From contig MFRN01000011.1 of the NCBI GenBank assembly GCA_001784585.1, forward strand, positions 63,953 through 127,952: a stretch of DNA of 64,000 nt, written 5' to 3'. Below the pieces are notes generated by a model, which did not search any database, had not been told where the DNA came from, and was given only the letters and a program-made list of their open reading frames with translations. Shown piece by piece: positions 41,403 to 64,000 of this stretch; the first letter of the stretch is position 1; every line of letters begins with the position of its first letter. The position numbers were made by a program, and so were the translations under genes. Source of the stretch: Candidatus Melainabacteria bacterium RIFCSPLOWO2_02_FULL_35_15. Its GTDB lineage: Bacteria > Cyanobacteriota > Vampirovibrionia > 2-02-FULL-35-15.

Positions 41403-43160
41403 TTAACCTTTTTTGTTTTGTGGTTTTATCTCAGTTTTATCTGTTTCATTATCCAGTTCTAATATAACGTTTCTAACAGGCGGCTTTGACAATAATTTAA
41501 TTTCCATCTTCTTTGAGAAGAATTGCCCTTTAGGTGTGCTGACTGTAAAAGATCTTTTTGATATATCATCACCTGTAAATCTTATCAGAAGTAAAATTTG
41601 TTTTCCTTTATTTAAAACTCTTGTCCTTAAAATTTCAATATCGCTTTCATTACTGAATGAGACAAAAGTGTGTGATTTTGACGGTTCAGATATAAATTCT
41701 CTTCCGTTTATTTTTATTAATCTTGAGGCAAAGTTTTCTCCAGACAAAATTAACCGGATTATTTTTCCGCCTTTTTTGGAAGAACCGGTTACCCGTCCCT
41801 GAATTTGTTTGACTTTTGGCAAACCTGTTTTAATTTCAGCTTCTCCTACATTTTGAAAATCATATGAGTTAAACAGTTTTACTGTTCCTTTGGATAAAAC
41901 TTCTTTTTTGCCTCCTCCTTTATTTAATACTGTTACAAGCGTGGCTACTCCACTATTTATGGACTCAGGGAAAAAGAGTCTGGAAAGAAGCACACTGCCT
42001 GATTTTATCTCCTGAGTGTTTCCGGGAATTACGGTAGTTTTTTTATTGGTGTCTATAATTACATAATTTATATTTTTTAAATCTTTTTCTTTAAGTTTTA
42101 TCCCGGAGTTTAATTTAATAATATATCCGCCGAATCCTGATTTTATAATTCCATGAGTTTCTGAAGTCTGGGCTGGCTGATCGCTTACCTGTTTTTTAAC
42201 GTTAGAAGGTTTACCGGAAGCAGTTTCAATAAGAGCAGTTTCTAATGTTTGTTTGCTAAATGAAATCAGGGGAATTTTTGGAGTGTAAATTACCTGGTTT
42301 GCTCCGCTTAAATCAAGTGACTTAATGTTTATATCTAATGAGGTATCTGATCTAAAAGACAAGGTTTCTGCAGGAATTAATTTTACTTCCGGAATATTTT
42401 GAATATTTTGATTTTGCGGGAAAGAAGGCGGCGGCTGAAAGAACCTTTCGTTAAAAGGCCTTCTGCCAGCCGGAGGATTAAACTGGTTATTTGCCTGATA
42501 ATTTTGTGAAACATTTTTTTTATTTGTATTGAATTGTACAGAACCGGTAAATTTGTTAGTTTCCGGAAAAGCACTTGGAGGCCTGCCCGGTGTTCCGGTA
42601 AATTCAGCCGGTCTGCCACTATTAACCAGGTTGGTTAAAGGTGCAGCCTGCCCTGTAAAAACCGGAGCTTGTGCAGTACCCGGGTTTGTAATAGTAATAG
42701 TTTGATCAGTCGATAATGTTTTATCCGGGGATTTGTCCGGTGGTTTATTTGCTGCTACACCACTAGCAGGTTTATCTGCCGGTTCTATTTTTTGAATAAA
42801 ATCTGCGCTGCGAAATGTAACTTTACCTGTGTCCTGACCGTTTAATGTGCTGACGGTAAAATATCTAATATCATCAGATGTAACAGGAACAGAGCTGTCA
42901 TATTCAAGTCTGGCTTTTATTAAAACTCTTTTTATCTCAGATAAGCTCTTTGGTACTCTGATTTGTTTTAAGGTAATTTTACTGTTATCAGTAAAAGTAA
43001 TTGTAGTAAACGGCTGATTTGCAACTGGTGATCTAACCGTTTGGTTATTAATTTCTACTTTATGTCTCATGAAGTTATGTCCTGTTATTTTAAGTAAGTA
43101 CTGTTTCTTGGTTGAACCGGTATTTTGAATGTCTGGAATTTCAGTCAGTGTTATTTCTGT
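41403..43160 (-). other. C-terminal IPT-like domains of the giant protein
   Basis: Two copies of one motif set: LKITGHNFMRHKVEINN ... YFTVSTLNGQ (around 42840-43110) and LILSGENFASRLIKING ... SFTVSTPKGQF (around 41500-41790). A third relative is in the truncated neighbour at 63007-64000 (ITGKNFIGRRAKI ... LFVSTPAGQTF). The GxNF...STPxGQ frame resembles IPT/TIG Ig-like folds. A Pro/Asn-rich disordered stretch lies between the two copies here. Confidence 0.6.
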
Positions 43161-46100
43161 AATAACAGGCTTACTGATGATTTTATTATGAATTATTGAT
43201 GTTACAAATACCCTCGGTGATATTTTAAATTCAGCTTTAGAAATCAGCTTTGTGCTTTGATCCTTATTAATGGTTAAGATTAAATATACATCACCCGGTG
43301 GTATCTCATCTGTAAGCTGAACTTCTAAAAGCAGTTCTCTTGTATCTGCATTATACGAAACAATTTTTGTAATAGAGTCATATGTCTTATTATCAGCTTT
43401 GGACTTAATTAAAAATTTAAGCAGTTGTACTTCGTCTGGAGCAAGATTTATTTCAGGACCAAACCTTAATCCTACATAAGCCCTTCCGCCTGCGACTAAA
43501 CTAGTAACAAAATTTTCATTATCAACGGGACTGCTCAGCCACTTCCTGAATAAATTTGACTTATCAGACGGGAATTTAAGTATTGTGGTTTTGTCCTGTA
43601 TATTCAGAGTATTAAGCAGTTTAACTATATTGAATAATTTAGGCAGAGTTGTAATCTGGGCTTGCGGAAGTTTGTCAAGGTCCAGCGTCAGTTCTTCAGT
43701 AAGACAGTTTTGCAGGCTGGATGGATTTATAACTTTTGGCAGGCCATCCTGTGGGAGTATTGTCAGGGTGAAGGTACGATCAAAATATTTTGAAGGAGTT
43801 CCGCCATCGGTTGCTCTTATAGTTACAGATATATCTTTTGCTGTTTGCAGCCCGGATTTACCCGGAGCTAAAGTTAAAATATAATTTTGATTATTTGTCA
43901 GCGGATTTATACCACAGAGTTTTACTCCGTTAATTTCCGGTTTAACTGAAATTATTGAGTATGTAATTCTGCCAAGATTGTTTTTGTCCGGATCAGGATC
44001 AATTCCAAGATCATCAAGATTAATAATTATTTGATCTCCTTCATGAAGTGTAATTTGAGGAATTTCTCTTATATACGGCCCTTCATTTTCATCAGGATTA
44101 TTTATAGCAAAGTAAGCTGAGATTCCAGTGCCGTCGCATTTTTCCTTACTGGTAAAGAATGTAACTTTATGGACACCACTAGGAAGATTTTTCGGATGTA
44201 GTTTTGTATTTAATGTAAATGTTTGCGGGTTTGGTCCTCTTTGAGTCCAGATTAATCTTTCTGTGCCGCTGTTAATATTACTGTCATCAAACGGTTTATC
44301 ATAAACAGTCCAGTTGGCATAACTTGTTCTGTATCCTGTATCTGTTTCACTGGCTGAAACGATCAGCATTAGTGAGGAATTGCTTTCTATCCAGTAGACT
44401 CCTGATATGCCAGTTTGAGGCGGGAGATCAGGTCTGGTTATTAGCACAGGGTTAATCTTCGGAGGGTTTGGCGGCGGATTATTCGGACTGCATAGTCCTG
44501 TATCTGTTGGTGTTCCTGAAGGAAGTACACAATTTCCGTTAACACATAGATTCGGACCCGGGCAGGAGGTTTTTTGTCTGCATATTCCGCTGTCACAGTA
44601 TCCTTCACGGCATCTCATCGGATCTGATAAAACCTGACAATCACTAATTTGAGAACAGAATGGATAATTTTTTCCACCACTGGATGAGCTGCCAGGAGGG
44701 ATTATCCAGTGCCCAGATGATGACGATGAACTGGTGGATGAAACAAGGACACAGGTGTTTGTAGAAAGATTACAGAAGTAATTTTCCGGACAGTCGCTAT
44801 CTGATGCACAGATAACACCTGATGAACTGCTACTGGAAGATGCAGGCGGGTTATGTATACAGAACGGGGCAGACCAGCTTACACCGGAAGAAGATGCATC
44901 ATTAACACATACTGGGGTACTGTTACTGTCACATCTGGGCAGCTCTGAGCTTGTAAAACATGTTGGAATAAAATTTTCATCAGAGCACTTTGGATTTCCA
45001 CTTGAGCAAAGTACACTGGGCGGACTGCCTGATGAGCTTGAAGAAATACATGCTGCTGCTTCACAGCTATGAGTATATGGAGTTAAGCAACATAGTGGGC
45101 CACTTTCTTCTTCAGATGGACAGTATGTATAAGGTTTGGAATACGGACAGAAAATATTTAATCCGTTTGGACAGCCTGGCTCACCACTTGAACAGAAGCC
45201 TCCACCTGATGAAGAGCCTGACAGGGCACAACCCGGTTCAACACAGTTAGATGCAAATAAATTATCACAGCAAACCGGGATATCATCAGATGTACATAAG
45301 GTGTATATAAAATCATTTGGGCAACTTATTTCAAAACCATTAGAACATTGGGCATATCCGCTTGAACAGAAAGGTGTACCGGAAGAAGCTGCTCCGGAAG
45401 AAGACGATGAGCTGGAAGAGGAGCTTGATGATGAACTTCCACCACTGGATGAGCTGGATGATGATGATGAGCTTGACGAACTGCTTGATGAAGAGCTTCC
45501 ACTACTGGATGAGCTGCTTGAGCTAGAAGATGATGATGAGCTTGACGAACTGCTTGATGAAGAGCTTCCGCCACTGGATGAGCTGGACGAAGAAGATGAT
45601 GAGCTTGAAGATGCGCATGGATCTGTAGAGTAATTAATCAAAATACATTGCCCATTTATACAAACATATTTTTGATAAGTCATTCCATTTGGACAGGTGC
45701 CTAAAGGACAGTTTGCATCTACAGTACAGCTAATTACTCCGCTAGAGCTGCTGGAAGAAGATGATGAACTTCCGCCACTGGATGAGCTGGAGGAAGAAGA
45801 GCCTCCCGAGGAAGAGCTGGAAGATGGGATTGGCGTGCAGGTTCCTTCTTTTAGATCATTGTTACTTGAATTAAAGCACTTAGGTACAGGGATATTTTGA
45901 ACATCACTTACACAGACTTTTGTATATTCACTATCACAAGTAAATTGGTATCCGGTACAACATGTAGGTAAATTATTTACACATGTTTTTGGACAATCAA
46001 ATTCACAAGTGCCTGATAAGAACCTTGGGTTGCAGGCACATCGCGGACGAGTACCACTTATACAAACTTTACTGCAACCTTCCGGGCAGGTGAAGCTATA

Positions 46101-49100
46101 ACCGTCACAGCAACCTGGTAAATTATTTGTGCACTGAGGAGAACAGGCGTTTTGGACATTTATAATTTCATCGTAGTTAAATTTGTTTGAATTACCAAAG
46201 CAAGCACCGTCTAAGAATTGAGAATTGAGAGCTAATCGTTCTGCATTTGGAGGTGTAATATTAAATCCGCCGGATGGAACACATACTGCTTCCGGAGCAC
46301 CTGGTTCATTTCGCCAGAATCCTTGTTGTGCGCATCCTGGCACAGGCCCCCATCCATCTCCAAGATCTCTACATTCCGGGGTTGCTCCCTGGTGTATTAC
46401 ACACTCAGGAGTTGTTCCACCAGAACATGAAATGTTTCCATTGCCATCACAAGTTGGAAGGATAACACTGGCTCCGCTAGAGCTGGAAGAAGATGATGAT
46501 GAGCTACTGGAAGATGAGCTGCTTGAGCTTGAAGAAGATGAGCTGCTTGAGCTTGAAGAAGATGAGCTGCTTGAGCTTGAAGAAGATGAGCTGCTTGAGC
46601 TTGAAGAAGATGAACTGCTGCTTGATGAAGAACTTCCGCCACTAGACGAGCTACTGGAAGATGAGCTGCCAGAAGAAACAAGCTGACATGAAGAAGCATA
46701 TTCGTAAAATCTGTAATCTGAGTTTTCGTAGCTAAAGCATCCGGGGATTTGTCCAATACACCTTGGCATAAATCCACTTTGTGGAGTATATCCCCCAATG
46801 GTTGTAGGGCAAATAATTTCGTATCCCGGAGGACTCATAATTACATTGTTTCGATCACATGTTGGACATGCTGGTGTACCTGGCAAACAAACAGGTGGAT
46901 TTGGAGATTCAGTAGGTGGAATAGTACTTAAGTTAAAGCATGTAGGTACTCTGTCTAAACAGAATAGATCATAACCATCCTGACATTTAGCAATAAATCC
47001 ATCTGTGATAACTAACTCATCATTTTCATCACAGCTAACAGAACATAGTGGTCCTCCACCACTGGATGAGCTGGAAGAAGATACAGAAGTTTGGCAGAGT
47101 GGAGTTGGAGGACCAGAAGAAACACATGAAACTAATTCTGAACAGTTTAGTGAGCTTGCATCCGGACAGCATATAGTAGCACCGCCGGCTAAACATCTTA
47201 TACATGTACCAGTCTGACATTTTGGATTAGAATTATCAGTGCAATATGGTTGATTGTTAGTATTGCAGAAAGCCTGTGCCCCTGGAAGACCACTACTGGA
47301 AGAAGATGAGCTGCTTGAGGATGAAGAACTTCCGCCACTGGATGAGCCGGAAGATGATGACGAACTGCCGGAAGAAGATGAAGAGCTGCTTGAAGATGAT
47401 GTAGTAGTGGACGTTCCGCTTAAGATACATGTTCTTGCAAGATCTGCATCACTTATATTTGCTATATTTTCCTGTCCGGGTGCTACAGGTAATGTAGAAC
47501 AATCTCTTGCAATTTGATTTGTAGCAAAAGCATGAATAAGAGCATCATTACCTCCCGGTGAACAGTTGGTAAGTAATATAAAAAGATACTTACCATCATT
47601 AGTTACATCAGCAGATGTAACAGCAAGATAAGGAACACCTGAAAATCTGGGTAATTGTACAGTAGGACCATTTTTAATTAATGGACATACCCTCGGATCA
47701 ATCCTGTTTGCAAAGGTATCGATGGCAAATGACTGAATGGTATTTGTACCATATTTATCAATTAAAAATAATGTCTTTGTATTTGGATTAATTACAATTT
47801 GTCCTGCAACTTTTTTAATTACATTTCCTGAGCCATCAGTAGCTGTAACAGTAGCTGGTACCGGAGGTCCTTTTGGCACTATGTGACCTGTAAATGGTTC
47901 TAATTCAGAATTACGTCTGATTAGATCAAATGCCCTTACAAAACCTTGCTCCAGATTATTAGCATCCGGTACCAGGTAAGAAATAAACAAGATACCTTTT
48001 GAGATTGCAACATCAGCAATAGTTATATTTTTAGCTGCATTCCCGGCAATGATTGTTCCAAGATCCAGAATTCCACCCGTACCGATTTGTTTAAGTTTGG
48101 CAACTGTTCTTGGACTTGTGTTATTTATATCAGGCTTTTTATTAAATACAAATATTGAAAGTGAATTTGTAGAAGTATCACCAGACGGTGGATCGCTCTT
48201 TGAAATATTTGCACTAAGAGCATAATAAAATGTTCCTTCAGGCGGAGAATTGTCAAACCTGAATAATGAGTAATCTTCATTATTACTCTCATATGTATAT
48301 GGTGTATTTGGTGTAATCAGTCCTGGTATTAATCCGCCTGAGCTGGATAAGTATTTTTGAATTTGCCCGTCATAAAACTCTGAATAAATAACAGGGTTTG
48401 CTCTCTGTGCGGTTTGATTATTATTAATTGCAGCACCAAAATATAATGCATCTGGTCCAAAGTCCAGGTCACTATAATAATTTGGAAGTAATGTAGAGCT
48501 TGATGCCTGGTTTGCAGCCGGCAGATCAGATTTAATTAACTGAAGGGTGCTACCTGCTACTTCCTGAACCTGTCCGAGATTATTTGTGTTTGGAATATTT
48601 TGAATAGTAAATGCTTTTATAGCAGGCCTGTCTGTATCGTTAGTTACACTTAGATTACTTACAGGAGCAAAATACAAAGTGTCAGAAACGCCATTATTAT
48701 AACGAACTTTAGCAACAGGCCCTTGCAATACTGCCTGTGTACCTGATCCTGCACTTACAGAAGAAGTACTAAAGGTTAGGTTTAGGTCTATCATTCCAGG
48801 TAATGTTTCTGTAAATCCAAAACCAAATATTGTATCTGAACCATGAATTGAAACTACACCTGCCCCCTGGTTTTGAGTAGCTGATTTTTGAACTGCTATT
48901 TCTCCATATCTGTTTTGCAATCTGAGTCCGCCTCCGCTTGAATTTGTAATATTTCCACCGCCAGCTATATTTATAAATCCTGAACTGTTAGATATGGCAG
49001 GTATAAGATTTGAAATATAGCACTGTCTTAAGTTACAGCATACTGCAGGCGGAACTTCACTGCTTAAACCAAATGTAACTATCTTACCTGTCAGGTTTGT

Positions 49101-55100: not shown

Positions 55101-58100
55101 GAATGTAGGAACACTATAAACTTCACCTAAAACTGCATCGTCAAGCGGAGAGCTGGTAGTTATTTGCAGTGGTGATGTTCCTGTTCCTCCGCTGGAAGTA
55201 CCAGTATCTGAAGTACATGACTGTCCGCCGCCTTGTTGATTAAGAGTACATGATGGATTACTGCTGTAGGGTGAAACCTTTAAGGTTAATTGTTTGTCAG
55301 CAGTCTGAAGGTTAGTATCCAGAACATGAGCTGTAAGAGTATAAGCTCCTTCAGCAGTTGGTGTTCCCCAGAGAAGATCATTAGACAGCATTAAGCCAGG
55401 CACTGTACCTGAAGCAATAGTTACCGTATAGGGTGCCTTCCCACCGTAAGGTAAGATATTGTGTTCGTAAGGTCTTCCTACAAATGCATCCGGAAGCAAA
55501 GAATCATTTGCTATGTCTAATGTACAGGCTTTACATGCAGCAGGAAGAATATTTACTGAAAATACTTTTTGAGCTTTATTCCCACTGGTATCAGCTACAC
55601 CCAGTGTAAATAAAAGATTATGTGCTTCAGGTCCCCAGATATTTGAACCGTATACTATACCATTACTTAGAGCAGACGGGTATGGAGGCGCTCCTGAATC
55701 AAGAGACCAGCTATAAGGTGTGCTGCCGCCTGCAGCAGTAGGAGTAAACAGGAAAGATTGAGACTGAAGTGTTTCCGGAACACTGGATGGTGAGCTTATA
55801 CTTAATCCACCGCCACTGCCATTAGTACTTCCTACACAAGTTAATCCTCCCGGCTGACTATTTACACTGCATGAAGGATTTACTTCATATGGTTTTACAT
55901 GCAGAGTAAGGCTGCTGCTTTCTACTTCAGTTCCATCAGCATCGGTAGCTTTAACTGTAAATGAAAAATCACCTTCAATTTGAGATTTGCCGCGGAGTAT
56001 ACCGGTAGGATAAAATGCAATTCCCGGAGGAACAGAGCCGGTAATTATCTGCCATGAATACGGTGCTGTTCCACCGATTACTGCAAGTGAGTGATAGTAT
56101 TCTTTACCGTTAATAGCATCAGGCAAAGTACCGCTATTTGCTATTTTTAAGTCACAGGTATTGCATGCTCTTGGTTCAACGCTAACTGAGTAAACTTTTT
56201 GAAGCTTCTTAGGTGGTGTACCTGAATCTGTAACCTGGACAGTAAATAAAAAAGCAGCTGCATCTTTTAGGTACGGTTCATTGACAGCACAGTAAAAGAC
56301 ATCTGCGTAAAGTCCGCAGCCATTAGGCGGATAACCGTATAGAGCCCAGGTGTAAGGTGGCATGCCACCATTTGCAGCAAAAGCTTTTGAATATACCTGA
56401 CCATGAGTTAGCTCACTATCTAAAGTAGTACTAATAGTCAGTCCGCCACTTCCTGTAGCACAAGTCTGAGAACTTGAAATATTTAAATTACAGGATGGAG
56501 CATTGTTAACAGGATTATCCACAGTAAGTGTAAATGAAACATCTTTTGTAGCATTATTTAAATCTGTAACTCTTACTGTAATGTCTTGCGGGCCTGTAGT
56601 AGTAGGAGTTCCGTACAGTACGCCGGAGTAATGCAGTGTCAAACCTGGAATTGATCCTGAAACAATACTCCATTTATATCCCGGAGCACCGCCTGTAGCT
56701 GCAAATGAATGTTCATAATATCTGCCTTTTTTTGCATTGGGTAATGTGGCAGGATTGGCGATTAAGAGCGGGCATTGATCACACAAATCTGCCCGTGGCA
56801 AAACATTAACTGAAAATACTTTTTTGGCTTCCTGAGCCGGATTGCCTGAATCAGTTACCTTTACAGCAAACAAAGTATTATGTGCTTCATCTGCAGGAGG
56901 ATCATTTGTAGGAGTGCAGCTTATTGCACCTGTGCCAGTAGCTAAATTACATCCGCCAGGTAACGATCCACCTGCAAGAGACCATGAATATGGAGAAGTA
57001 CCGCCAGTTGCTGTAAGAGTTCTAAGAGCAGTCATCCCCTGAGTTAGTGCATTTAGGGGTGAAGATGCAGTGATAACTAAAGCAGGTGCTCCGCTTCCGC
57101 CTTCTCCGGTACAGCTGGTTCCTGTAGCCTGTGAAGAAATACTGCAGGCTGATTCACTGCTTGCACGTACTGATATAGAAAAAGTTGCCCAGTAGGATTG
57201 AGCCGGGTTTGATGAATCAGTTACTTTAACTGAAAAACTATACTCTACATCGATCTCTGCATCTGGTGCTACAGTCCCTGATATATAGCCATTTGAAAAA
57301 CTAAGTCCAGGAGGAGGTGAGCCGGATTCAAGTATCCAGCTGTATCCTGGTTTTCCGCCAAATGCTATTAGCCTGTGGCTATAAGGTGCTCCTTGTCTTC
57401 CGCTTGGAAGAGGAGTGGTGTTTGCTATTGTCAGTGGTGTTTCCTGGCAACTGCCTGCACCACTGGAAGATGATCCGCCACTGGAAGATCCACCGGATGA
57501 AGAACCACCTGAAGAACTGGTAGTTGACATTCTGCAGTAGCATCCGCCCATTTCATCAGTAGCATCAGTAGGATCAATAACACATTCTTCACCAGGAGAA
57601 CAACTACCATTACACCGAGGAAATAATGAATCTGCACATGCTTTTGGAATAGTTGGGTGGCATGAACCAGCACCTGGATAGAATGTGTTGAGAAAAACAC
57701 ATCCTGGAACAAGAACACCCTGTGAGAATTTACATGTAGCACCAGACTCAGGATACTGACCACTCTGGCACTGATAAGTATAGTCAGAGCAGCCAGAACA
57801 GCTGGGCGGAGAACCAACACTCTGGCAAACAGGAGTACAATCACCGGAAGAAGATCCACCGGATGAAGTAGTTGATCTGCATGAACCAAAATTTGGAAAG
57901 AACTGGTTTAAATCATTACATCCTGGAACAAGAATATTTTGTGAGAAATCACATGTAGCAAATCCAGCCTGGCACTGATAAGTATAGTCAGAGCAGCCAG
58001 AACAGCTGGGCGGAGAATCAACACTCTGGCAAACAGGAGTACAATCACCGGAAGAAGATCCACCGGATGAAGATCCGCCACCGGAAGAGGTAGTTGTCCT

Positions 58101-61100
58101 GCACTGACATAGGCTGATTGGCCCATCATCAAACACAAACACACTACCACTAGCACACTCTTCGCCAGAAGGACAGCTGCCATCACACTGAGGAAATGAA
58201 TCGGAACATGCTCTGCCGGAAGATCCACCTGAAGAGGATGAACAGGCATCTGCGCATTGTCCATCACAGCATATAGCTCCGGATGGAGGACAGCCCTCTG
58301 GAGGTGAAGTACAGTCATTATCAGTGGTACAACTACAGTCAATTCCACCAGAAGAACTGCTTGAAGTAGTGGTCCCGCAGTAGTCATCAGGATTATCATT
58401 ATTCCAGGTACCAGGTATACATGTATTATTGCTTTGACTACAGCAGGAACCTGCTTGGCACTGATAGTTTCTGCAGCACTCATTACATGTGGAATTACTT
58501 CCAAACCAGCAGCAGTGTAGTCCTAAGTTACAGTCAGTATCAGCATTACACATGCCAGAAGATCCTCCGGAAGTACTGCCGCTGGAAGATACACAAATGC
58601 AGGGAGGGTTATAACTGCCTTCAGGATCTTGTATACAAGTTTCTCCTGAAGGGCATGTTCCATTACACAGTGGAGCAGTATCTGAGCAGGCTGCCATATT
58701 TTGGGATTCGCATATTCCGTTAACACACTGTTCACCAATATTAGTATTGCAACATTTTCCATTACAACAAATATCAGTCTCCTGGCAACAGTCTGTTTCT
58801 GTAGTTCCAATACAACATTGTGTTGAGTCAGCACAGCAATAACCATTTGAACAGCTAAAGTAACCAGTACCGCAATCTCCTGAAGATCCACCACTGGAAG
58901 AAGATCCGCTGCAGTCCTCAGGACAGGTAGAAGGATTTTCATTTACATCACAGATTCCATCACCGCACTCAATGCAGCTTCCACCAAAGCAATAACTGCT
59001 TGCACCACAGCGTGTTCCATCCAGCGCCACCGAATAAGTACAGGTACAATCAACACAATCTACAGGATGGCAGGCATCAGTTGCAGCACAATAATCTTCC
59101 AGACCATCCTCGCACTCTTCAGTACCTCCTAGCATTCCATCACCACAGACAGGAGACAATTGTCTGCAAGATGAGTCTGGAGGCATATCGATACAACCGA
59201 ATTGACAAGAGTCAAAATGGGACCACTGACAAGTACCTGCACCTACTAATGCACAATACTGAAGTTCGCCAGAACCATCCGGATTACACCTTCGGCTCCC
59301 TTCTGGCCAAGTATCACAAAAACAATTAAACGCTGTAAATAAAATTTGATCTGAATCTATGTAATTTGACTGACTGAAATAACCTCCGTCTAAAAAAGTA
59401 AATGGTGATCTGACTTTTTGACAGCTAATATCTGATATCTCATAGCTTGGTGAAAATGTAAGTGCAACAGGTGTAAAATTTCTAAACTCATTATTAAAAC
59501 CTGATGGAGAAGGACAGCAACACTTATACTGTCCAATTAGGTGTGAGCAAAAACCTACAGGATCTTCCTTTATACCATCGCAAGAATCATCTAATCCTGT
59601 TAAATAGCAGGTATCCTGAGGGCAGCAAAGATCTGAATTTTCACCTGAACTTGATGAAGATGAGCTGGATGAACCTGATGAACTTGAACTGCTTGAAGAA
59701 CTTGATGAAGATGAGCTGGATGAACCTGATGAACTTGAACTGCTTGAAGAGCTTGATGATGAGCTGGATGAACCTGATGAACTTGAACTGCTTGAAGAAC
59801 TTGATGAAGATGAGCTGGATGAACCTGATGAACTTGAACTGCTTGAAGTAGTAGAGCAGGCAGTAATCCTTCCAATTCTATTTCCATTGTATTCAGTAAA
59901 CCAGAGATTATCATCAGCTCCTGCAGCAATTCCATATGGGTTACTGCCTGCTCTAAGCGGAGCATACTCAGTAATATTACCGCCAGTTGTAATACTTCCA
60001 ATTCTGTTTCCCAGATATTCAGTAAACCAGAGATTACCATCAGCTCCTGCAGCAATTCCAAACGGGGCACTGTTTGAACCAGGCAAAGTATACTCCATAA
60101 TATTTCCACCGGTTGTAATACTTCCAATTCTGTTTCCGGTGCGCTCTGTAAACCAGAGATTACCATCTGGTCCTGCTGTTATAGCAAACGGGCCGCTGTC
60201 TGCATTAAGCAGAGGATATTCCATAATATCTCCGTCTGTTGTAATACTTCCAATTCTGTTTCCCAGATATTCAGTAAACCAGAGCTTACCGTCTGCCCCG
60301 ACTGTGATTTCCATCGGGACACTCCCTGCATTAGGCAGAGTATACTCTGCAATAATATTTCCAAGAGTTGTAATTACTCCGATTTTATTTTCATTATTTT
60401 CAGTAAACCAGAGATTACCGTCCGGCCCGAGTATAATTCCGCCAGGAAAACTATCTTCAACAGGCAGACTATGCTCACTAGTAATTACACCAAGCGTTGT
60501 AATTACTCCGATTTTATTTTCACTATATTCGGTAAACCAGAGCTTGCCATCAGAACCTGCAGTAATTCCATAAGGAAAGCTGTCTGCATTAGGTAAATCA
60601 TATTCAGCAACTGAACCGCCCGTAGTAATCTTTCCGATTCTATTTCCATTGCTTTCTGTAAACCAGAGATTGTTATCCGGTCCCATTGTAATTCTAAATG
60701 GACTGCTGCTTGAAGTCAGATTGTACTCTGCAATTGTCCCGGTTATACAAATATCACCACCAGATGAGGAGCTTGAAGAAGAGCTGCTTGAGGAAGAAGA
60801 TGAGCTGCCTGAAGATGAGCTGGAAGAGCCTGAAGAACCGGAAGATGAGCTTGAAGAACTTGATGAAGATGATGAGCTGGATGAACCTGATGAGCTGCTA
60901 CTGGAAGATGATGATGAGCCGGATGAAGTTTGTGATGGCGGTGTAAATCTAAGTGTTCCTGAACTTGTAGTTTGTCTGTAGTAAGAAACCAGCAGGTAAT
61001 AATCATTCGGGTTTGCAGGATCTGTAATGGTTTTAATTCCGCTAATGTATTCATCTCCTTTAAACGGTGCATTAGAATTAGGATTTAAGCTGATAAATGA

Positions 61101-62708
61101 TTTTCTGGTAAAATTATTTGAATTATTTACAGTCGGATCTGCAGTACCGAAATAATGATATGCCCTGTGAAACATATCAGTAGTTTCATCATAATCAAAT
61201 AAACTAAATCCCATAAATGCATCTAAAGCCGGGTTTAATGCTGATCCTGCAATTTTCTGGAGATCTTCAGTTCTGTCATGAATAAATGTCAAAGCACCAA
61301 TAGTAATATTTTGAAATTTTTCAACAGCTTCGGTTCTGACAGTCTTAGCCGGAATATCAATAGTGTTATGGATAATTAAATCATTATTAATTTTGTCAGT
61401 AATATTAAAAAGATTTTGATCGTCAAGGATGGCCTGATAAGTACTGCCTGAGCTTCCTGTATTTTTTATAATTCCTAAGGCTTCGATGTCATCACCTGAA
61501 TCACTTTTTCCTTTAACAAGTGAAATTAATTTTGTCGGATCATCCGGAAGCGATACAAAAGAAATAATATTATTTTTGTCATTTAATTTAAAGATCAAAG
61601 ATGTAGTAGAGCTGATTTCTTCATGTGAAACATTCATTCCGTCAATTTTAGATACTACTCCGAACGGAAAAGTAGTGTTGTCACTTTGCTGAGCCGGAGT
61701 AAAGAGATTAAACTTCGGACCGTCAGGTGTTGTTTCTGTTTTTTGTTTAGCAAATGAAAACGATACAGTCCGTGCATTTGAAGTTAAGTTCTGAGGTGTA
61801 ATTGAAATATTTTTAATGCTAATCTGGTCAGGAGTAATCTGAGAAATCAGTTCAAAATTATTGACACCCCCGAATCTGGCAACTGCCAAGATGGTATTAT
61901 TATCCACTGAACCGATATCAGAAGTGTCTTTTGTAACTGCTCCATATCCTGCATCAATGTCAATTGCATTTTCCAGATAAGCCAGGGTACCGTCTCTTAA
62001 GCTTGTAATGGAGTTTTCAGCAATTGTCGGCTGAATGTCTATACTCGTACAAAATCCGGAGTTTATTATCCTGGCATTTACACCTTCTGTTAATGCTTTA
62101 ACAGCTTTTTCAATTTGCGGCTGGCTGGTTTTTTCATCTTTTGAAATTTCATAATCTTTGTCACTTATGGATTTCTTTTTTGCAAGTTCATAAAAATGAT
62201 CTTTGTTTATATCGAGTAAAACTTTTAATTCACTGTAAGAATAAACAGGTCCGTCAAAAACAATTTGATTTAAAAGTTTTATTTGTTCTTCATCAGGGTA
62301 AGCACCGAATACTGATTTAAATGCATTAATCCCGGCCTTCAGTCTTAAATTATCATTTTTTCCAAGTATGGATTTTATATAGGCTACAACGCTTTCAGTA
62401 ACAACTGCTCTTTTCTTTTTTTTGAGAGCAATGCAGGTGAGATTGACAATTTTTAAATCAGGCTCTTCCCCAAGTACTGTATTGTAAGAGTAAACTATTG
62501 AATATTTTTCAGCAATTGAACATTTTATTTTATCTTCATCCTGACTTTGTTCTGACTTTGGTAAAGGGGTTTCTCCAAGGGCTAATGCTGGCCAAAAATA
62601 TCCGGCTAATATTTCAAAGGTAAAGATAAGAGCTACTGCGGCCCTTTGAAATTGTTTTAAAAATTTCTTTGCTTTACTTTGCAAAAATATCCTCTCAAAT
62701 TTACTCAA
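41403..62708 (-). CDS. Giant modular secreted protein (7101 aa): Vgb propellers, He_PIG Ig domains, Cys-rich modules, poly-Ser linkers
   Basis: One uninterrupted frame of 7101 codons. The start is TTG 62708 (MSKFERIF). Residues 24-44 form a hydrophobic signal segment ending PALALGE. Then, approximately: 45-585 unrecognised beta-rich domain; 590-650 Ser linker; 650-953 seven Vgb/streptogramin-lyase-type repeats; 955-1020 Ser linker; 1020-1750 Cys-rich modules (CGDGMLGGTEEC, CGDGICDVNENPSTCPEDC); 1750-2900 ten He_PIG Ig domains; 2900-3790 Cys-rich plus a jelly-roll-like domain; 3800-4090 second seven-repeat propeller; 4090-5100 Cys-rich and lactonase-like beta region; 5100-6080 Cys-rich with long Ser tracts; 6080-7101 cadherin/IPT-like domains. 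No anchor or sorting motif is visible. Likely surface or extracellular adhesin; function inferred only. Confidence 0.9.
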   Translation of the reverse strand: MSKFERIFLQSKAKKFLKQFQRAAVALIFTFEILAGYFWPALALGETPLPKSEQSQDEDKIKCSIAEKYSIVYSYNTVLGEEPDLKIVNLTCIALKKKKRAVVTESVVAYIKSILGKNDNLRLKAGINAFKSVFGAYPDEEQIKLLNQIVFDGPVYSYSELKVLLDINKDHFYELAKKKSISDKDYEISKDEKTSQPQIEKAVKALTEGVNARIINSGFCTSIDIQPTIAENSITSLRDGTLAYLENAIDIDAGYGAVTKDTSDIGSVDNNTILAVARFGGVNNFELISQITPDQISIKNISITPQNLTSNARTVSFSFAKQKTETTPDGPKFNLFTPAQQSDNTTFPFGVVSKIDGMNVSHEEISSTTSLIFKLNDKNNIISFVSLPDDPTKLISLVKGKSDSGDDIEALGIIKNTGSSGSTYQAILDDQNLFNITDKINNDLIIHNTIDIPAKTVRTEAVEKFQNITIGALTFIHDRTEDLQKIAGSALNPALDAFMGFSLFDYDETTDMFHRAYHYFGTADPTVNNSNNFTRKSFISLNPNSNAPFKGDEYISGIKTITDPANPNDYYLLVSYYRQTTSSGTLRFTPPSQTSSGSSSSSSSSSSGSSSSSSSSSSSSSSSGSSGSSSSSSGSSSSSSSSSSSSSSSGGDICITGTIAEYNLTSSSSPFRITMGPDNNLWFTESNGNRIGKITTGGSVAEYDLPNADSFPYGITAGSDGKLWFTEYSENKIGVITTLGVITSEHSLPVEDSFPGGIILGPDGNLWFTENNENKIGVITTLGNIIAEYTLPNAGSVPMEITVGADGKLWFTEYLGNRIGSITTDGDIMEYPLLNADSGPFAITAGPDGNLWFTERTGNRIGSITTGGNIMEYTLPGSNSAPFGIAAGADGNLWFTEYLGNRIGSITTGGNITEYAPLRAGSNPYGIAAGADDNLWFTEYNGNRIGRITACSTTSSSSSSSGSSSSSSSSSSSSSSSSGSSSSSSSSSSSSSSSGSSSSSSSSSSSSSSSSGSSSSSSSSSGENSDLCCPQDTCYLTGLDDSCDGIKEDPVGFCSHLIGQYKCCCPSPSGFNNEFRNFTPVALTFSPSYEISDISCQKVRSPFTFLDGGYFSQSNYIDSDQILFTAFNCFCDTWPEGSRRCNPDGSGELQYCALVGAGTCQWSHFDSCQFGCIDMPPDSSCRQLSPVCGDGMLGGTEECEDGLEDYCAATDACHPVDCVDCTCTYSVALDGTRCGASSYCFGGSCIECGDGICDVNENPSTCPEDCSGSSSSGGSSGDCGTGYFSCSNGYCCADSTQCCIGTTETDCCQETDICCNGKCCNTNIGEQCVNGICESQNMAACSDTAPLCNGTCPSGETCIQDPEGSYNPPCICVSSSGSTSGGSSGMCNADTDCNLGLHCCWFGSNSTCNECCRNYQCQAGSCCSQSNNTCIPGTWNNDNPDDYCGTTTSSSSSGGIDCSCTTDNDCTSPPEGCPPSGAICCDGQCADACSSSSGGSSGRACSDSFPQCDGSCPSGEECASGSVFVFDDGPISLCQCRTTTSSGGGSSSGGSSSGDCTPVCQSVDSPPSCSGCSDYTYQCQAGFATCDFSQNILVPGCNDLNQFFPNFGSCRSTTSSGGSSSGDCTPVCQSVGSPPSCSGCSDYTYQCQSGQYPESGATCKFSQGVLVPGCVFLNTFYPGAGSCHPTIPKACADSLFPRCNGSCSPGEECVIDPTDATDEMGGCYCRMSTTSSSGGSSSGGSSSGGSSSSGAGSCQETPLTIANTTPLPSGRQGAPYSHRLIAFGGKPGYSWILESGSPPPGLSFSNGYISGTVAPDAEIDVEYSFSVKVTDSSNPAQSYWATFSISVRASSESACSISSQATGTSCTGEGGSGAPALVITASSPLNALTQGMTALRTLTATGGTSPYSWSLAGGSLPGGCNLATGTGAISCTPTNDPPADEAHNTLFAVKVTDSGNPAQEAKKVFSVNVLPRADLCDQCPLLIANPATLPNAKKGRYYEHSFAATGGAPGYKWSIVSGSIPGLTLHYSGVLYGTPTTTGPQDITVRVTDLNNATKDVSFTLTVDNPVNNAPSCNLNISSSQTCATGSGGLTISTTLDSELTHGQVYSKAFAANGGMPPYTWALYGYPPNGCGLYADVFYCAVNEPYLKDAAAFLFTVQVTDSGTPPKKLQKVYSVSVEPRACNTCDLKIANSGTLPDAINGKEYYHSLAVIGGTAPYSWQIITGSVPPGIAFYPTGILRGKSQIEGDFSFTVKATDADGTEVESSSLTLHVKPYEVNPSCSVNSQPGGLTCVGSTNGSGGGLSISSPSSVPETLQSQSFLFTPTAAGGSTPYSWSLDSGAPPYPSALSNGIVYGSNIWGPEAHNLLFTLGVADTSGNKAQKVFSVNILPAACKACTLDIANDSLLPDAFVGRPYEHNILPYGGKAPYTVTIASGTVPGLMLSNDLLWGTPTAEGAYTLTAHVLDTNLQTADKQLTLKVSPYSSNPSCTLNQQGGGQSCTSDTGTSSGGTGTSPLQITTSSPLDDAVLGEVYSVPTFSAAGGVPPYTWSQAGGNLPPTCIFYTDGKIYCNPPSWNNLLPETDPFMKDSYNVLFAAKVTDSAVPPKEVTKVFSIKVVPKTCIGPCDFQIANAGTLPDGTWSAAYLHSVAAVGGNPPYEFMVISGEFPSGLTIDGTGRIHGFPTLSGGEPRDTEKTFSFVLQAKDFDGANVTKDCTLKIGPSSNTNICAATGQTGGLSCFARSTSNTSGDTSGGSSGGSTASTLEILDNGALPDAIQNKFYRYTFRAQGGEPSYTWGLDSTSNELPRWCYKVWTPANGYYTSTEYCYRCSLEASTGILNCGHSETGASYTSAYINEVDDGHYYSNQYYYYRIPHLFTYLFTVNVTDGNGKTSQKAFSINVSPDPSTCPVSSSSSGDCCNAGCNLQPLSAFCSGTIENPLPACSDLINQVCCCPASSSSSSGDCCRCVSGTKICDPGKEPNCPSTNPYSRCQGSDLLCCESSDSNSVCTPADGTCIATSSSGQVFCGNNSSGDYAYCTDRSVPACQSGGCIQCLGNGAAICCPAPNSISCSEEPVCVSGVSSSSSGTPLCENITSSSSSSSSGCTPTCENGEPVCPCSNYHFECASSGMPACFIGPTCLIGGGQDPDLVRCVPDTPALCSSGSVTCTDGNVPRCQSGGCIQCLTDGTAICCSPTDPSNCSEVVSCIPASSTSTSSSSSSGTGVVLCSTGQPDCQGNQYICPFGQDPCCVPNSEEAGCGTGIFCDGGAGNCELSSGGSSTSSSSSSSSSSSSSSGLIASPICGTSSSSGGALCSTGAPVCPNGQQFICPSREVPCCASSGQAGCGAISAFYGSSGSCQTMTTSSSSSSSSGANSDCSSFIPSEWSQLNCESQIPQGEKFCGYKCNGATGQWSCNYVPVNQSCPFTPCISDNNPYTVTFSENGLVGGVDPLHMDFPTAGLGSYLPKVSDITINKGVYFSHQFLGSFDGFVYVTKTRYWTSVSAGPSGDNLLVVEPYQDSPINLIAWFANPDTGTLLTAPGSTISSFVFVQPLLNVTREVIAQTYDINGALIEEKRSTNGILQFTTGDVAKVAFGELSGGRFFIDDFHFGPLNCPSSSSGGGSSSSGSSSGSSSSSSSSSSSGSVVFCSNGLPVCSNGQTFTCTNGQTPCCDPDSNTPGCCDVPVCNIGSGSCPASSSSSGGSSSGGSSSSGGSSSGSSSSGGSSSGGSSSSGSSSSSSSSSSGCDPTCPDSTSLPVCCSNYHFECGSSGTPSCAPGYATCIIGQGQDPALARCVLNTSSSSSGTASCDGINITEFPVLTVNGAPVSITTGPDGNLWFTESLGNKIGRTTPGGIITEFPANGLPVNITTGPDGNLWFTENVGNQIGKITPDGIITEFPITTLGSQPHGITTGPDGNLWFTESLGNQIGKITPGGAITEFPANGFPWDITAGPDGNLWFTENVGNQIGKITPDGVLTEFPIPTANSSPAGITTGPDRNLWFTEPGVNKIGRITLGGTVTEFPIPTANSNSWNITIGPDENIWFTEPGVNKIGRITPGGTITEFSIPTTNSNPYDITTGPDGNLWFVGENNVGKIVCFSVSSSSSSGGSSSGSSSSGGSSSGGSSSSGGSSSGGSSGAQAFCNTNNQPYCTDGSNPKCQTGTCIRCLAGGATICCPDASSINCSEPVSCVSSGSPTPVCQTSTSSSSSSSSGCIPTCVNNVPTCCSADQIYFCNTGTPSCNNGTLPGCLGVGFNEGGGSCITVSSSSSSSGVSSSSSGGSSGSSSSSSSGGSSSGGSSSSGGSSSGTVVSCPISANLFSAPSGEFNNVTQDGTVYVPILESKEINSGAAILGSHLALFAINRNQQTGFINDTNPVTFLEDIPTDYIDQDCPSSLYENSGTGLAVTIRAPLAGSIATTACGTTVAVADKLYKKNIRTYGIDFGLAKNKAAKLADSTNSDGLLTGSDSVLKQKLKGNDVDTFALNNLNILNLNLAPEHDPIMITTSNEREYFESYISDFDISRNNVLIAGVTDRLTSAQRNLLNETTTNLTGKIVTFGLSSEVPPAVCCNLRQCYISNLIPAISNSSGFINIAGGGNITNSSGGGLRLQNRYGEIAVQKSATQNQGAGVVSIHGSDTIFGFGFTETLPGMIDLNLTFSTSSVSAGSGTQAVLQGPVAKVRYNNGVSDTLYFAPVSNLSVTNDTDRPAIKAFTIQNIPNTNNLGQVQEVAGSTLQLIKSDLPAANQASSSTLLPNYYSDLDFGPDALYFGAAINNNQTAQRANPVIYSEFYDGQIQKYLSSSGGLIPGLITPNTPYTYESNNEDYSLFRFDNSPPEGTFYYALSANISKSDPPSGDTSTNSLSIFVFNKKPDINNTSPRTVAKLKQIGTGGILDLGTIIAGNAAKNITIADVAISKGILFISYLVPDANNLEQGFVRAFDLIRRNSELEPFTGHIVPKGPPVPATVTATDGSGNVIKKVAGQIVINPNTKTLFLIDKYGTNTIQSFAIDTFANRIDPRVCPLIKNGPTVQLPRFSGVPYLAVTSADVTNDGKYLFILLTNCSPGGNDALIHAFATNQIARDCSTLPVAPGQENIANISDADLARTCILSGTSTTTSSSSSSSSSSGSSSSSSGSSSGGSSSSSSSSSSSSSGLPGAQAFCNTNNQPYCTDNSNPKCQTGTCIRCLAGGATICCPDASSLNCSELVSCVSSGPPTPLCQTSVSSSSSSSGGGPLCSVSCDENDELVITDGFIAKCQDGYDLFCLDRVPTCFNLSTIPPTESPNPPVCLPGTPACPTCDRNNVIMSPPGYEIICPTTIGGYTPQSGFMPRCIGQIPGCFSYENSDYRFYEYASSCQLVSSGSSSSSSSSSGGSSSSSSSSSSSSSSSSSSSSSSSSSSSSSSSSSSSSSSSSSSSSSSSSSSSSSGASVILPTCDGNGNISCSGGTTPECVIHQGATPECRDLGDGWGPVPGCAQQGFWRNEPGAPEAVCVPSGGFNITPPNAERLALNSQFLDGACFGNSNKFNYDEIINVQNACSPQCTNNLPGCCDGYSFTCPEGCSKVCISGTRPRCACNPRFLSGTCEFDCPKTCVNNLPTCCTGYQFTCDSEYTKVCVSDVQNIPVPKCFNSSNNDLKEGTCTPIPSSSSSSGGSSSSSSSSGGSSSSSSSSSSGVISCTVDANCPLGTCPNGMTYQKYVCINGQCILINYSTDPCASSSSSSSSSSSSSGGSSSSSSSSSSSSSSSSSSSSSSGSSSSSSSSSSSSSSSSSSGGSSSSSSSSSSSSSSGAASSGTPFCSSGYAQCSNGFEISCPNDFIYTLCTSDDIPVCCDNLFASNCVEPGCALSGSSSGGGFCSSGEPGCPNGLNIFCPYSKPYTYCPSEEESGPLCCLTPYTHSCEAAACISSSSSGSPPSVLCSSGNPKCSDENFIPTCFTSSELPRCDSNSTPVCVNDASSSGVSWSAPFCIHNPPASSSSSSSGVICASDSDCPENYFCNLSTNTCVLVSSTSSSSSSGHWIIPPGSSSSGGKNYPFCSQISDCQVLSDPMRCREGYCDSGICRQKTSCPGPNLCVNGNCVLPSGTPTDTGLCSPNNPPPNPPKINPVLITRPDLPPQTGISGVYWIESNSSLMLIVSASETDTGYRTSYANWTVYDKPFDDSNINSGTERLIWTQRGPNPQTFTLNTKLHPKNLPSGVHKVTFFTSKEKCDGTGISAYFAINNPDENEGPYIREIPQITLHEGDQIIINLDDLGIDPDPDKNNLGRITYSIISVKPEINGVKLCGINPLTNNQNYILTLAPGKSGLQTAKDISVTIRATDGGTPSKYFDRTFTLTILPQDGLPKVINPSSLQNCLTEELTLDLDKLPQAQITTLPKLFNIVKLLNTLNIQDKTTILKFPSDKSNLFRKWLSSPVDNENFVTSLVAGGRAYVGLRFGPEINLAPDEVQLLKFLIKSKADNKTYDSITKIVSYNADTRELLLEVQLTDEIPPGDVYLILTINKDQSTKLISKAEFKISPRVFVTSIIHNKIISKPVITEITLTEIPDIQNTGSTKKQYLLKITGHNFMRHKVEINNQTVRSPVANQPFTTITFTDNSKITLKQIRVPKSLSEIKRVLIKARLEYDSSVPVTSDDIRYFTVSTLNGQDTGKVTFRSADFIQKIEPADKPASGVAANKPPDKSPDKTLSTDQTITITNPGTAQAPVFTGQAAPLTNLVNSGRPAEFTGTPGRPPSAFPETNKFTGSVQFNTNKKNVSQNYQANNQFNPPAGRRPFNERFFQPPPSFPQNQNIQNIPEVKLIPAETLSFRSDTSLDINIKSLDLSGANQVIYTPKIPLISFSKQTLETALIETASGKPSNVKKQVSDQPAQTSETHGIIKSGFGGYIIKLNSGIKLKEKDLKNINYVIIDTNKKTTVIPGNTQEIKSGSVLLSRLFFPESINSGVATLVTVLNKGGGKKEVLSKGTVKLFNSYDFQNVGEAEIKTGLPKVKQIQGRVTGSSKKGGKIIRLILSGENFASRLIKINGREFISEPSKSHTFVSFSNESDIEILRTRVLNKGKQILLLIRFTGDDISKRSFTVSTPKGQFFSKKMEIKLLSKPPVRNVILELDNETDKTEIKPQNKKG
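46513..46608. repeat. Four perfect 24-bp tandem repeats encoding poly-Ser
   Basis: The unit GATGAGCTGCTTGAGCTTGA plus AGAA is repeated four times without a mismatch and is read on the minus strand as eight Ser per unit. Further similar but imperfect Ser-coding DNA flanks it (46480-46680). Confidence 0.93.
47086..47290. repeat. Cys-module duplication, copy A
   Basis: About 205 bp closely matching 50131-50335 in the same orientation, with roughly one difference per ten bases. Both encode the AQAFCNTNNQPYCTD ... CIRCLAGGATICCPDASS ... SCVSSG module. Two more diverged protein-level copies lie near 53100-53240 and 53480-53620. Confidence 0.88.
50131..50335. repeat. Cys-module duplication, copy B
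   Basis: Partner of 47086-47290, just C-terminal of the second propeller in the protein. Cys positions and spacing are unchanged between the two copies. Confidence 0.88.
50436..51312 (-). repeat. Second seven-repeat Vgb/streptogramin-lyase-type beta-propeller
   Basis: Seven repeats of about 40 residues with the pattern ITEFP...ITTGPDGNLWFTE...NKIGRITPGG. At the DNA level the repeats are still highly similar, for example the CCAGAGATTCCCGTCTGGTC stretch recurs. Seven copies match the seven blades of Vgb. The catalytic His residues I know from Staphylococcus Vgb are not apparent, so a binding role is more likely than lyase activity. Confidence 0.85.
54000..57460 (-). repeat. Ten He_PIG-type Ig domains arranged as five A-B pairs
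   Basis: A-type domains begin near 57445, 56780, 56160, 55530 and 54848. They carry a (x)IANxxxLPxxxxGxxYxHxxxxxGG core, and all but the first are preceded by CxxC or CxxxC. Each is followed by a B-type domain preceded by SCxxxxxxGxxC and ending with (Q/K)KxFSxxVxPxxC. The pair repeats five times with a period of 620-680 bp; the last B domain has a Tyr-rich insertion (near 54100-54170). Confidence 0.85.
57765..58072. repeat. 204-bp-period tandem duplication in Cys-rich region
   Basis: Bases 57765-57868 and 57969-58072 match at 103 of 104 positions by eye, in direct orientation. They encode the CTPVCQSV(D/G)SPPSCSGCSDY module twice. 204 bp equals 68 codons, so frame is kept. Confidence 0.92.
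59645..59848. repeat. Poly-Ser linker built of 48/51-bp tandem repeats
   Basis: Four copies of a unit containing GATGAGCTGGATGAACCTGA; three have the 51-bp spacing and one lacks a GAA triplet (48 bp). On the minus strand each reads as 15-16 Ser plus one Gly. It links the first propeller to the following Cys-rich module. Confidence 0.92.
59849..60761 (-). repeat. First seven-repeat Vgb/streptogramin-lyase-type beta-propeller
   Basis: Seven repeats of about 42 residues: IxEYxLPxADSxPxGITAGxDGxLWFTEYxGNRIGxITTGG. It is flanked on both sides by long poly-Ser linkers and begins and ends with Cys (ICITGT ... ITACS), which may close the ring by a disulfide. It is more diverged from the second propeller than repeats are within each propeller. 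Confidence 0.85.
60762..60942. repeat. Poly-Ser/Gly linker before the first propeller
   Basis: Minus-strand translation is almost only Ser with single Gly residues (GSSSSS type). The plus-strand text is GAAGAAGAGCTGCTTGAGGA-like DNA. It separates the N-terminal domain from the propeller. Confidence 0.9.
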
Positions 62709-62796
62709 ACCTTATAATTAGACTTATAAGTTCTATTTTGGAAACAATTTTATTGTGATTCTTTATTTATGTTCCCGAGGAGAGCCCTTACAAATC

Positions 62797-62812
62797 TAAC
62801 TTACGTCAGTTA
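62797..62812. promoter_or_regulatory. 16-bp near-palindrome upstream of the giant gene
   Basis: TAACTTACGTCAGTTA: seven of eight base pairs between the two half-sites are complementary. It lies about 90 bp upstream of the TTG start in the 298-bp gap. Possible operator; the binding protein is unknown. Confidence 0.35.
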
Positions 62813-62943
62813 TTTGACTGTATAAACATCTTTTTTACAGCCAAAAAGTTATAGTTTGACTAAGTTAAGTCCAGCTATGCGACGTATGTCACTAAAGTAT
62901 CTGATAGGATAGCAAATTTTCTGAAAAAATCAAAAAAAAATCC

Positions 62944-62959
62944 TGTGACACAGATCACA
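62944..62959. promoter_or_regulatory. CRP-like site TGTGA-N6-TCACA or weak terminator stem
   Basis: A perfect TGTGA(N6)TCACA match, the consensus of CRP-family regulators including cyanobacterial SyCRP1. It lies 236 bp upstream of the giant gene start. On the minus strand it is followed by GGA and nine T residues, so it could instead be the stem of an intrinsic terminator for the truncated upstream gene, 48 nt after its stop. The stem is only 5-6 bp. Confidence 0.4.
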
Positions 62960-63006: not shown

Positions 63007-64000
63007 CTACTGCTTTTTAACCTGAGCCCGGGTATATTCAGTTAAATCAATTGTAGTAAATGTCTGCCCTGCAGGAGTAGAAACAAACAGATCTTCTTTT
63101 TTGCCTGCATAATTTTTTGGTAAGAGTAATTTTATGATTAGTTTAGTATTGTTATCCTTTGTTTTGATCTTTGTAACCTGAATAATATTATTTCTAAATT
63201 CTGCATATGTAAATCTCGACAATTCACCAGATCTGAATTTCTTAGAAATTACAACGTTGGTATTTTTAATCTTAGCTCTTCTGCCTATAAAGTTTTTTCC
63301 TGTGATATGTAATTTAAGACTAAGCCTGTCATTAGGATCTTCTGTAATCTCATATTTTTCTATAAATGGCTTGCCAAAAGGCTTCCCGGTGGTTCTGTAA
63401 ATTTTCTGGGGTTTTATAATATTTAATTCAGCAGAAACTATATCACTTTTGAATCTGCTGACATCATAAATAAATACTTTAGCCGTGCCTTCAGGCTCGC
63501 TTTTGTCAACTACAGTAGTAAATTTAATTATATTGTCTTTAGACAGAGTTATTGTAGCAGGCGGGAGCTTTATTCTGTTTGTGCTTGAGACCCAGCTTAA
63601 TTTTAAATTCGAAGAGTTCACATTAAATATTTTCAGCGGGATTTCCAGGGAAGCTTTGGAACCTGCAATAATTGCTCTTGGCAAATCATATTTTATTTTT
63701 GCATATAGCCTGCCTGGTGTTTTTTCAACTGATTTTAAAACTTCATCTGCTATAAACGGAACTCTTGGAAGCCAGACGCTGGCAATATTTGATTCTTCCA
63801 GTTCAGAAACAGGGATATCTATCACTAAGATACTGAATATAAATCTGCTTGGTTTACAATTGTCTTCGGCTACTGATTTTACTGTAAGTTTGCCGGAAGT
63901 TTTAGGAGTACCTTTGATTAATATGAAATTATATCCCGGCGCTTTATTTAATTCTACAGATTTAAAATCAGAATTCAGACCTGTGATTTTTACTTTGTTT
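63007..64000 (-). CDS. Ig/IPT-like domain protein, 5' part outside the window
   Basis: The frame is open from the TAG at 63007-63009 to the right edge (330 residues visible). The GTG at 63825 is internal, not the start. The visible N-terminal part carries a He_PIG-like end (YNFILIKGTPKTSGKLTV ... FSILV). After about 100 residues of beta-rich sequence comes an IPT-like domain (ITGKNFIGRRAKIKN ... DLFVSTPAGQTF) that closely parallels the C-terminal domains of the giant protein. No Ser linker is visible in this part. It is on the same strand as the giant gene, 298 bp upstream, and may belong to the same surface-protein locus. Confidence 0.8.
   Translation of the reverse strand, partial: NKVKITGLNSDFKSVELNKAPGYNFILIKGTPKTSGKLTVKSVAEDNCKPSRFIFSILVIDIPVSELEESNIASVWLPRVPFIADEVLKSVEKTPGRLYAKIKYDLPRAIIAGSKASLEIPLKIFNVNSSNLKLSWVSSTNRIKLPPATITLSKDNIIKFTTVVDKSEPEGTAKVFIYDVSRFKSDIVSAELNIIKPQKIYRTTGKPFGKPFIEKYEITEDPNDRLSLKLHITGKNFIGRRAKIKNTNVVISKKFRSGELSRFTYAEFRNNIIQVTKIKTKDNNTKLIIKLLLPKNYAGKKEDLFVSTPAGQTFTTIDLTEYTRAQVKKQ

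Follow-up and report, generated by a model that had tools for sequence, protein, structure and literature searches.

The window analysed here, a stretch of 64,000 nucleotides from Candidatus Melainabacteria bacterium RIFCSPLOWO2_02_FULL_35_15, carries on its minus strand, at positions 41403-62708, a reading frame of 7,101 codons (21,306 nt) that no stop interrupts. No N occurs in the window, and the unbroken frame claimed by the earlier note, made from the letters of this DNA, is confirmed. From base composition alone, the chance of a stop-free run of such length is about -193 on a log10 scale, while the other five frames across the same DNA hold 241-661 stops each. The source genome (1.94 Mb in 45 contigs, 99% complete) is that of a member of the groundwater Caenarcanales/Melainabacteria family, a non-photosynthetic relative of cyanobacteria. 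The features of the locus are as follows.

62759..62869, minus strand: conserved leader of ~110 nt before the start codon, the same element occurring in 8 genomes
41403..62708, minus strand: whole open frame, 7,101 codons, residue numbers being counted from the TTG at 62708
62574..62684, minus strand: probable start TTG (residue 9) and Sec-like signal peptide, residues 9-45; TTG and N-terminus kept in 8 genomes
60933..62573, minus strand: B1, N-terminal domain specific to the family, residues 46-592, present over nearly its whole length in 8 family genomes
60756..60929, minus strand: poly-Ser linker, residues 594-651, one of the Ser runs of at least 5
59856..60755, minus strand: Vgb-type beta-propeller 1, residues 652-951 (Pfam PF24684; PDB 2z2n at 2e-73)
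57459..59642, minus strand: Cys-rich block 1, residues 1023-1750, with mostly even Cys counts
54009..57458, minus strand: ten He_PIG-type Ig domains, residues 1751-2900 (Pfam PF05345; ten core motifs)
51315..54008, minus strand: Cys-rich block 2, residues 2901-3798, including a beta-rich domain (3367-3608); nothing matched in Pfam at E <= 1 over 2900-3610
50436..51314, minus strand: Vgb-type beta-propeller 2, residues 3799-4091 (Pfam PF24684; PDB 2z2n at 8e-84)
47421..49814, minus strand: B2, new domain of ~800 aa, residues 4299-5096, with orthologs in genomes G001 and G003 (dN/dS 0.14)
44661..47420, minus strand: Cys-rich block 3, residues 5097-6016, where the poly-Ser tracts are longest
42807..44660, minus strand: B3, residues 6017-6634, ending in an internal TIG-like domain (6506-6634; 43193-42807)
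41406..42806, minus strand: B4, residues 6635-7101, a Pro-rich stretch followed by the C-terminal TIG-like domain (6957-7071; 41840-41496)

Organisation of the giant protein

An in-frame stop lies 6 nt ahead of the TTG at 62708. As the orthologs all begin at a TTG that stands behind a GAGGATA-type ribosome-binding site and matches residue 9 of the window protein, the true start of the giant is probably the second TTG, at 62684 (8 codons in), which would give a protein of 7,093 aa. The Sec-like N-terminus (a K-rich part, a hydrophobic part, then ALA-Q) is conserved in 8 genomes. It is followed by B1, which is helical at residues 65-184 and beta-rich thereafter. Matches to B1 were found in 9 of the 97 genomes scanned, each a member of the family (in 8, most of the B1 length was matched), and in none of the 86 class genomes outside the family. 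A scan of genome contigs gave no match with a single protein as query, but did with an alignment. The named relatives carrying B1 are groundwater Candidatus Melainabacteria and one Candidatus Caenarcanales MAG. The AlphaFold model of B1 was fair for the helices (residues about 65-184, pLDDT 65-83) and poor for the rest, and neither a PDB fold search with this model nor a PDB sequence search with B1 returned a significant match. A DUF4214-like nature of B1, suggested by a motif, received no support from Pfam.

The second large domain, B2, is 76-77% identical to its ortholog in G001 and 55% identical to that in G003; it has no Pfam family and no PDB sequence match, and AlphaFold yielded no usable model of it. 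A kinship of B2 to the N-terminal domain of a separate downstream protein of the relatives (Y) received no support, with an hhalign probability of 0.7%. Both B1 and B2 had been overlooked in the part list of the earlier note, which correctly announced the two propellers and the ten Ig domains. Indeed, the Pfam Vgb_lyase model (PF24684) matched the two propellers at 1e-108 and 1e-141 (362 and 471 bits, for a cut-off of 50), and the Ig region displays ten GGxPxYxW-type cores (residues 1784-2786) and Pfam He_PIG (PF05345) matches at 1e-18 and 5e-17. In the alignment with PDB 2z2n, both propellers have a Tyr in place of His270, which we take to be the active-site residue of virginiamycin B lyase (Vgb), and both score below the curated NCBIfam cut-off for Vgb enzymes. 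The sequence family thus matches, but the active-site His270 is missing twice; because of this replacement, the two propellers are expected to bind rather than to catalyse.

Even at E <= 1, Pfam gives no match to the three Cys-rich blocks. The labels "granulin-like" and "CGDG-type" given earlier to their modules found no support, since no granulin or Cys-repeat family was recovered from Pfam (E <= 1) or NCBIfam (E <= 0.01). The number of Cys is even in 17 of the 23 linker-bounded segments considered (at least 4 Cys, at most 250 aa), and the modules are consistent with a disulfide-bonded extracytoplasmic type because of these mostly even counts. The linkers comprise 42 Ser runs of 5 or more, and 784 residues lie in S/G/T linkers of 6 or more. 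All six Ser codons are mixed in them, in proportions roughly as elsewhere, and identical neighbouring Ser codons show no excess (0.192 observed vs 0.217 expected).

The dN/dS values (Nei-Gojobori) are 0.14 for B2, 0.19 for B1 and 0.27 for B3-B4, and they are rough as dS is above 1. From these low values, from the mixed Ser codons without excess of identical neighbours and from the recurrence of the domain order in relatives, we conclude that selection acting on the protein maintains both the frame and the linkers, as the earlier note had claimed for the frame.

Module exchange and the shared TIG-like tail

In G001, which carries the same locus and belongs to the same genus, B2 and most of B3-B4 are kept (76% and 52% identity), and the tandem Cys modules around them are quite different from those of the window protein. 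The comparison thus points to a conserved backbone with exchanged beads, i.e. to a turnover of modules at the locus.

The arrangement of the C-terminal part also varies. In G003, G008 and G010, the counterpart of the internal TIG-like domain closes a protein of its own, and a second gene lies directly after this one, with its own signal peptide and a C-terminal half matching B4. In G000 (the genome of the window), G001 and G007, both parts stand in one frame. The giant therefore looks as if two secreted proteins encoded side by side had been joined; a fusion of this kind would leave one TIG-like domain inside the protein and so account for the presence of two.

The kinship of the TIG-like domains to the IPT/TIG family of Pfam (PF01833) is weak (matches from 3 of 12 members, the best at E 0.014), so that their Ig fold is a supposition drawn from this weak match. 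What the earlier note had overlooked is that the C-terminal domain recurs in many other genes. A profile built from it (alignment A4) was scanned against 11 family genomes, 86 other class genomes and a 244-genome phylum sample. It matched at 4 to 10 places per genome in all 11 family genomes, in 0 of the 86 other class genomes and, in the phylum sample, in the 5 included family members and in 0 of the 239 others. Among 64 closed-end ORFs, the last TIG-like domain lies at most 40 residues from the C-terminus in 59 and 61-84 residues from it in the other five. The parts ahead of this tail vary (propeller, Ig, FG-GAP-like, protease-like, Cys-rich), and 35 of the 44 complete N-termini are signal-like according to a crude rule. 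In each of two genomes of the genus, three TIG-tailed genes follow one another in tandem (L079/L121, G000:C4:93228-97321; L098, G002:C7:35535-40149).

The class has been described as diderm, with LPS genes (PMC4040986), and secretins occur in 11 of 11 family genomes. The TIG-like tail is a possible outer-membrane sorting or anchoring signal, by analogy with the type IX cargo of Bacteroidota, the secretion signal of which is an Ig-like C-terminal domain (PMC4804311). Like type IX cargo, the family proteins associate a Sec signal with one Ig-type domain (its fold being presumed) at the C-terminal end of many unrelated exported proteins. Unlike it, their tail is TIG-like in sequence, and none of 12 TIG-like members matched a T9SS sorting-domain model (NCBIfam at E <= 1; Pfam). 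A search for SprA/PorV gave no match in the 11 family genomes, yet the control genomes were equally silent, which makes this search uninformative; we do not class the TIG-tailed proteins as type IX cargo because no T9SS sorting model matches them. We tentatively suggest that the TIG-like domain may serve as recognition signal for a so far undescribed route of secretion or anchoring at the outer membrane, one that would resemble type IX secretion while being distinct from it and would have the giants as its largest cargo, a possibility that we regard as rather doubtful. The family-wide occurrence of this domain is new here; it is the part of our findings that could go beyond known kinds, and it offers a handle to list the surface proteome of the family and to ask how the outer membrane is crossed.

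Proposed role and rival explanations

As the best explanation, we consider it reasonably probable that the gene encodes an intact, very long, Sec-exported surface protein of a diderm Melainabacterium, which would serve as a multi-ligand adhesion or recognition fibre with its modules borne on flexible poly-Ser linkers. First, the giant would be exported by the Sec pathway. Second, it would cross the outer membrane or attach to it, the C-terminal TIG-like domain being the best candidate signal for this step. Third, a flexible chain of disulfide-bonded and beta-rich binding modules would be displayed outside the cell, where the propellers and Ig domains may bind ligands without catalysis, and where linker-separated modules may be gained or lost to track changing partners. 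The earlier note had proposed a surface adhesin or prey-binding fibre; its view of a secreted modular protein under selection stands (Sec-like signal, dN/dS, disulfide-type modules, no catalytic family), and the adhesin or prey-binding role itself is what we infer. No segment of the giant matched a catalytic family (Pfam, NCBIfam), nor did any match, in Pfam, the RTX repeats or C-terminal beta-barrel of type I or autotransporter adhesins. An enzymatic activity may still be hidden in B1, B2 or the Cys modules, because these have no known family and poor structure models.

This locus deserves attention since a genome of ~2 Mb devotes about 1% of its length to a single secreted protein, the plan of which recurs in several further giants, and does so in a lineage that is sister to the cyanobacteria. 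The conserved ends and changing modules suggest a gene facing changing partners, be they prey, hosts or competitors.

Among the alternatives, we find unlikely that the protein is a secreted scaffold for polymer capture or breakdown, in which the poly-Ser-linked modules would hold the substrate near the cell. He_PIG and TIG-like domains do occur alongside poly-Ser-linked carbohydrases. Moreover, as in the giant, poly-Ser runs part the secreted modules of the Saccharophagus degradans carbohydrases, such linkers being present in over a quarter of this organism's depolymerases (PMC2386152). Unlike these enzymes, the giant, which is far larger, shows in none of its segments a glycoside hydrolase, lyase or carbohydrate-binding family, and its Vgb propellers are devoid of the catalytic His.

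It appears more improbable still that the protein is a structural coat or an S-layer-like surface polymer without specific ligand, directed for instance against grazers. The giant is very long, repetitive and rich in Ser, Gly and Thr, as such a coat might be, and coat and grazing-defence roles have been proposed for other giants (PMC10066038; PMC4949707). Nevertheless, the diversity of its modules and their exchange at the locus are high, which fits recognition better than a uniform coat, and Pfam detected no S-layer domain.

The frame is not an assembly chimera: the misjoining of several Ser-rich genes at poly-Ser tracts by a short-read assembler is very improbable, even though the contigs of most relatives break inside the gene, the upstream giant on the same contig is interrupted by a run of N and a misjoin at Ser codons would preserve the frame, since the gene has no exact 31-mer in common with the other Ser-rich loci fetched from its own genome, G003 has B1 and B2 within a single contig (though a 40-N gap and a broken frame occur there in a Ser tract), B2-B3-B4 stand in one frame in G001, and the downstream genes are conserved. 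These adjoining genes, a permease (78-90% identical) and a glycerol kinase, are adjacent in G001, G003, G007 and G008, with MetH also seen in three of these. Synteny, domain order and purifying selection thus reappear in relatives that are independent of the window genome. Doubt is limited to the length of two Ser tracts, at about residues 954-1020 and 5366-5410, the exact sizes of which could be wrong as exact repeats reaching 90-99 nt underlie them. All the exact repeats of at least 60 nt inside the gene are under 100 nt, and the positions listed for them are neighbouring; the gene thus has no long exact repeat that could have served to misjoin unrelated pieces.

The proposed adhesion or recognition fibre has several counterparts among giant surface proteins. 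Giant ORFs (>20 kb) have been reported in Omnitrophota, and similar ones in Patescibacteria and Chlorobium chlorochromatii, with proposed roles in adhesion, predation or coat formation (PMC10066038). Like the Omnitrophota giants, the present protein is predicted to be extracellular and is encoded by a single frame of >20 kb in an uncultured lineage with a small genome; many of the former have multiple transmembrane helices, LamG, discoidin and dockerin domains (PMC10066038), whereas the Melainabacteria giant combines a Sec signal, poly-Ser linkers, Vgb propellers, He_PIG domains and a TIG-like C-terminus. SwmB of marine Synechococcus, a surface protein of 10,791 aa involved in swimming and grazing defence, is likewise a lineage-specific giant from the same wide phylum (PMC4949707), but the photosynthetic genomes sampled here lack the TIG-like C-terminal domain. 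Similarly, Giant1-5 of Apilactobacillus kunkeei are described as extracellular proteins of 3,000-8,000 aa encoded by consecutive genes in a small genome (PMC12863079), their host differing from the Melainabacteria in being a Gram-positive lactic acid bacterium. With virginiamycin B lyase, the giant shares the PF24684 propeller, in two clear copies, and differs from it by the double replacement of His270 by Tyr and by scores under the NCBIfam enzyme cut-off. With its conserved ends and exchangeable beads, the giant is a fresh case among already known giant surface ORFs, and our literature search found no description of these Melainabacteria giant proteins.

Upstream region and other giants

The leader was found in all 8 genomes with a full B1 and nowhere else among 121 loci. 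Its shared motifs are TATAAC, GTTTGTAAG and GGGCACAT..TAAAGAA. Rfam returned nothing above noise for the leader, and RNAalifold predicted no pairs on its MAFFT alignment. In an alignment-free arm-swap test, one helix gained support, its two arms pairing better when both come from one genome than when they come from different genomes (none of 5,000 permutations did as well, for arms picked by eye beforehand), and the other candidate helices were unsupported. Farther upstream, a perfect CRP-type palindrome, TGTGATCTGTGTCACA, occupies positions 62944-62959, about 260-275 nt before the start of the giant; near-matches with 1-2 mismatches lie at the same distance in G008, G006, G009 and G010, and only this shared position is notable because sites with 1 mismatch are expected by chance in the window.

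The window protein is one of a family-wide class of giant poly-Ser-linked secreted proteins. Such frames in relatives encode 5,330 aa (L064, G006:C1), 5,127 aa (L061, G002:C74), 3,976 aa (L027/L028, G002:C79) and 3,862 aa (L041, G010:C129). Several giants of relatives carry Vgb propellers, and G006 has 26 Vgb matches. The upstream neighbour of the gene is itself another giant (L025, G000:C11:124000-133422), the 3' end of which lies in the window (63007-64000, minus strand). Its sequence contains a gap of 99 N and is truncated where the contig ends; it includes propellers of the Vgb and Kelch types, poly-Ser linkers and, at the C-terminus, the same TIG-like domain. On the other side, at 34181-38017 (minus strand), a Ser/Cys-rich protein of 1,278 aa has the same kind of linker and a thrombospondin type 3 repeat, without the TIG-like C-terminus. 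A second class of giants occurs in G002 and G006 (L061, L063, L065-L067); its N-terminus, unlike B1, reads ...LLSVLSIFLFNLPTLAAFDFNYxNLFKxP directly after the hydrophobic stretch.
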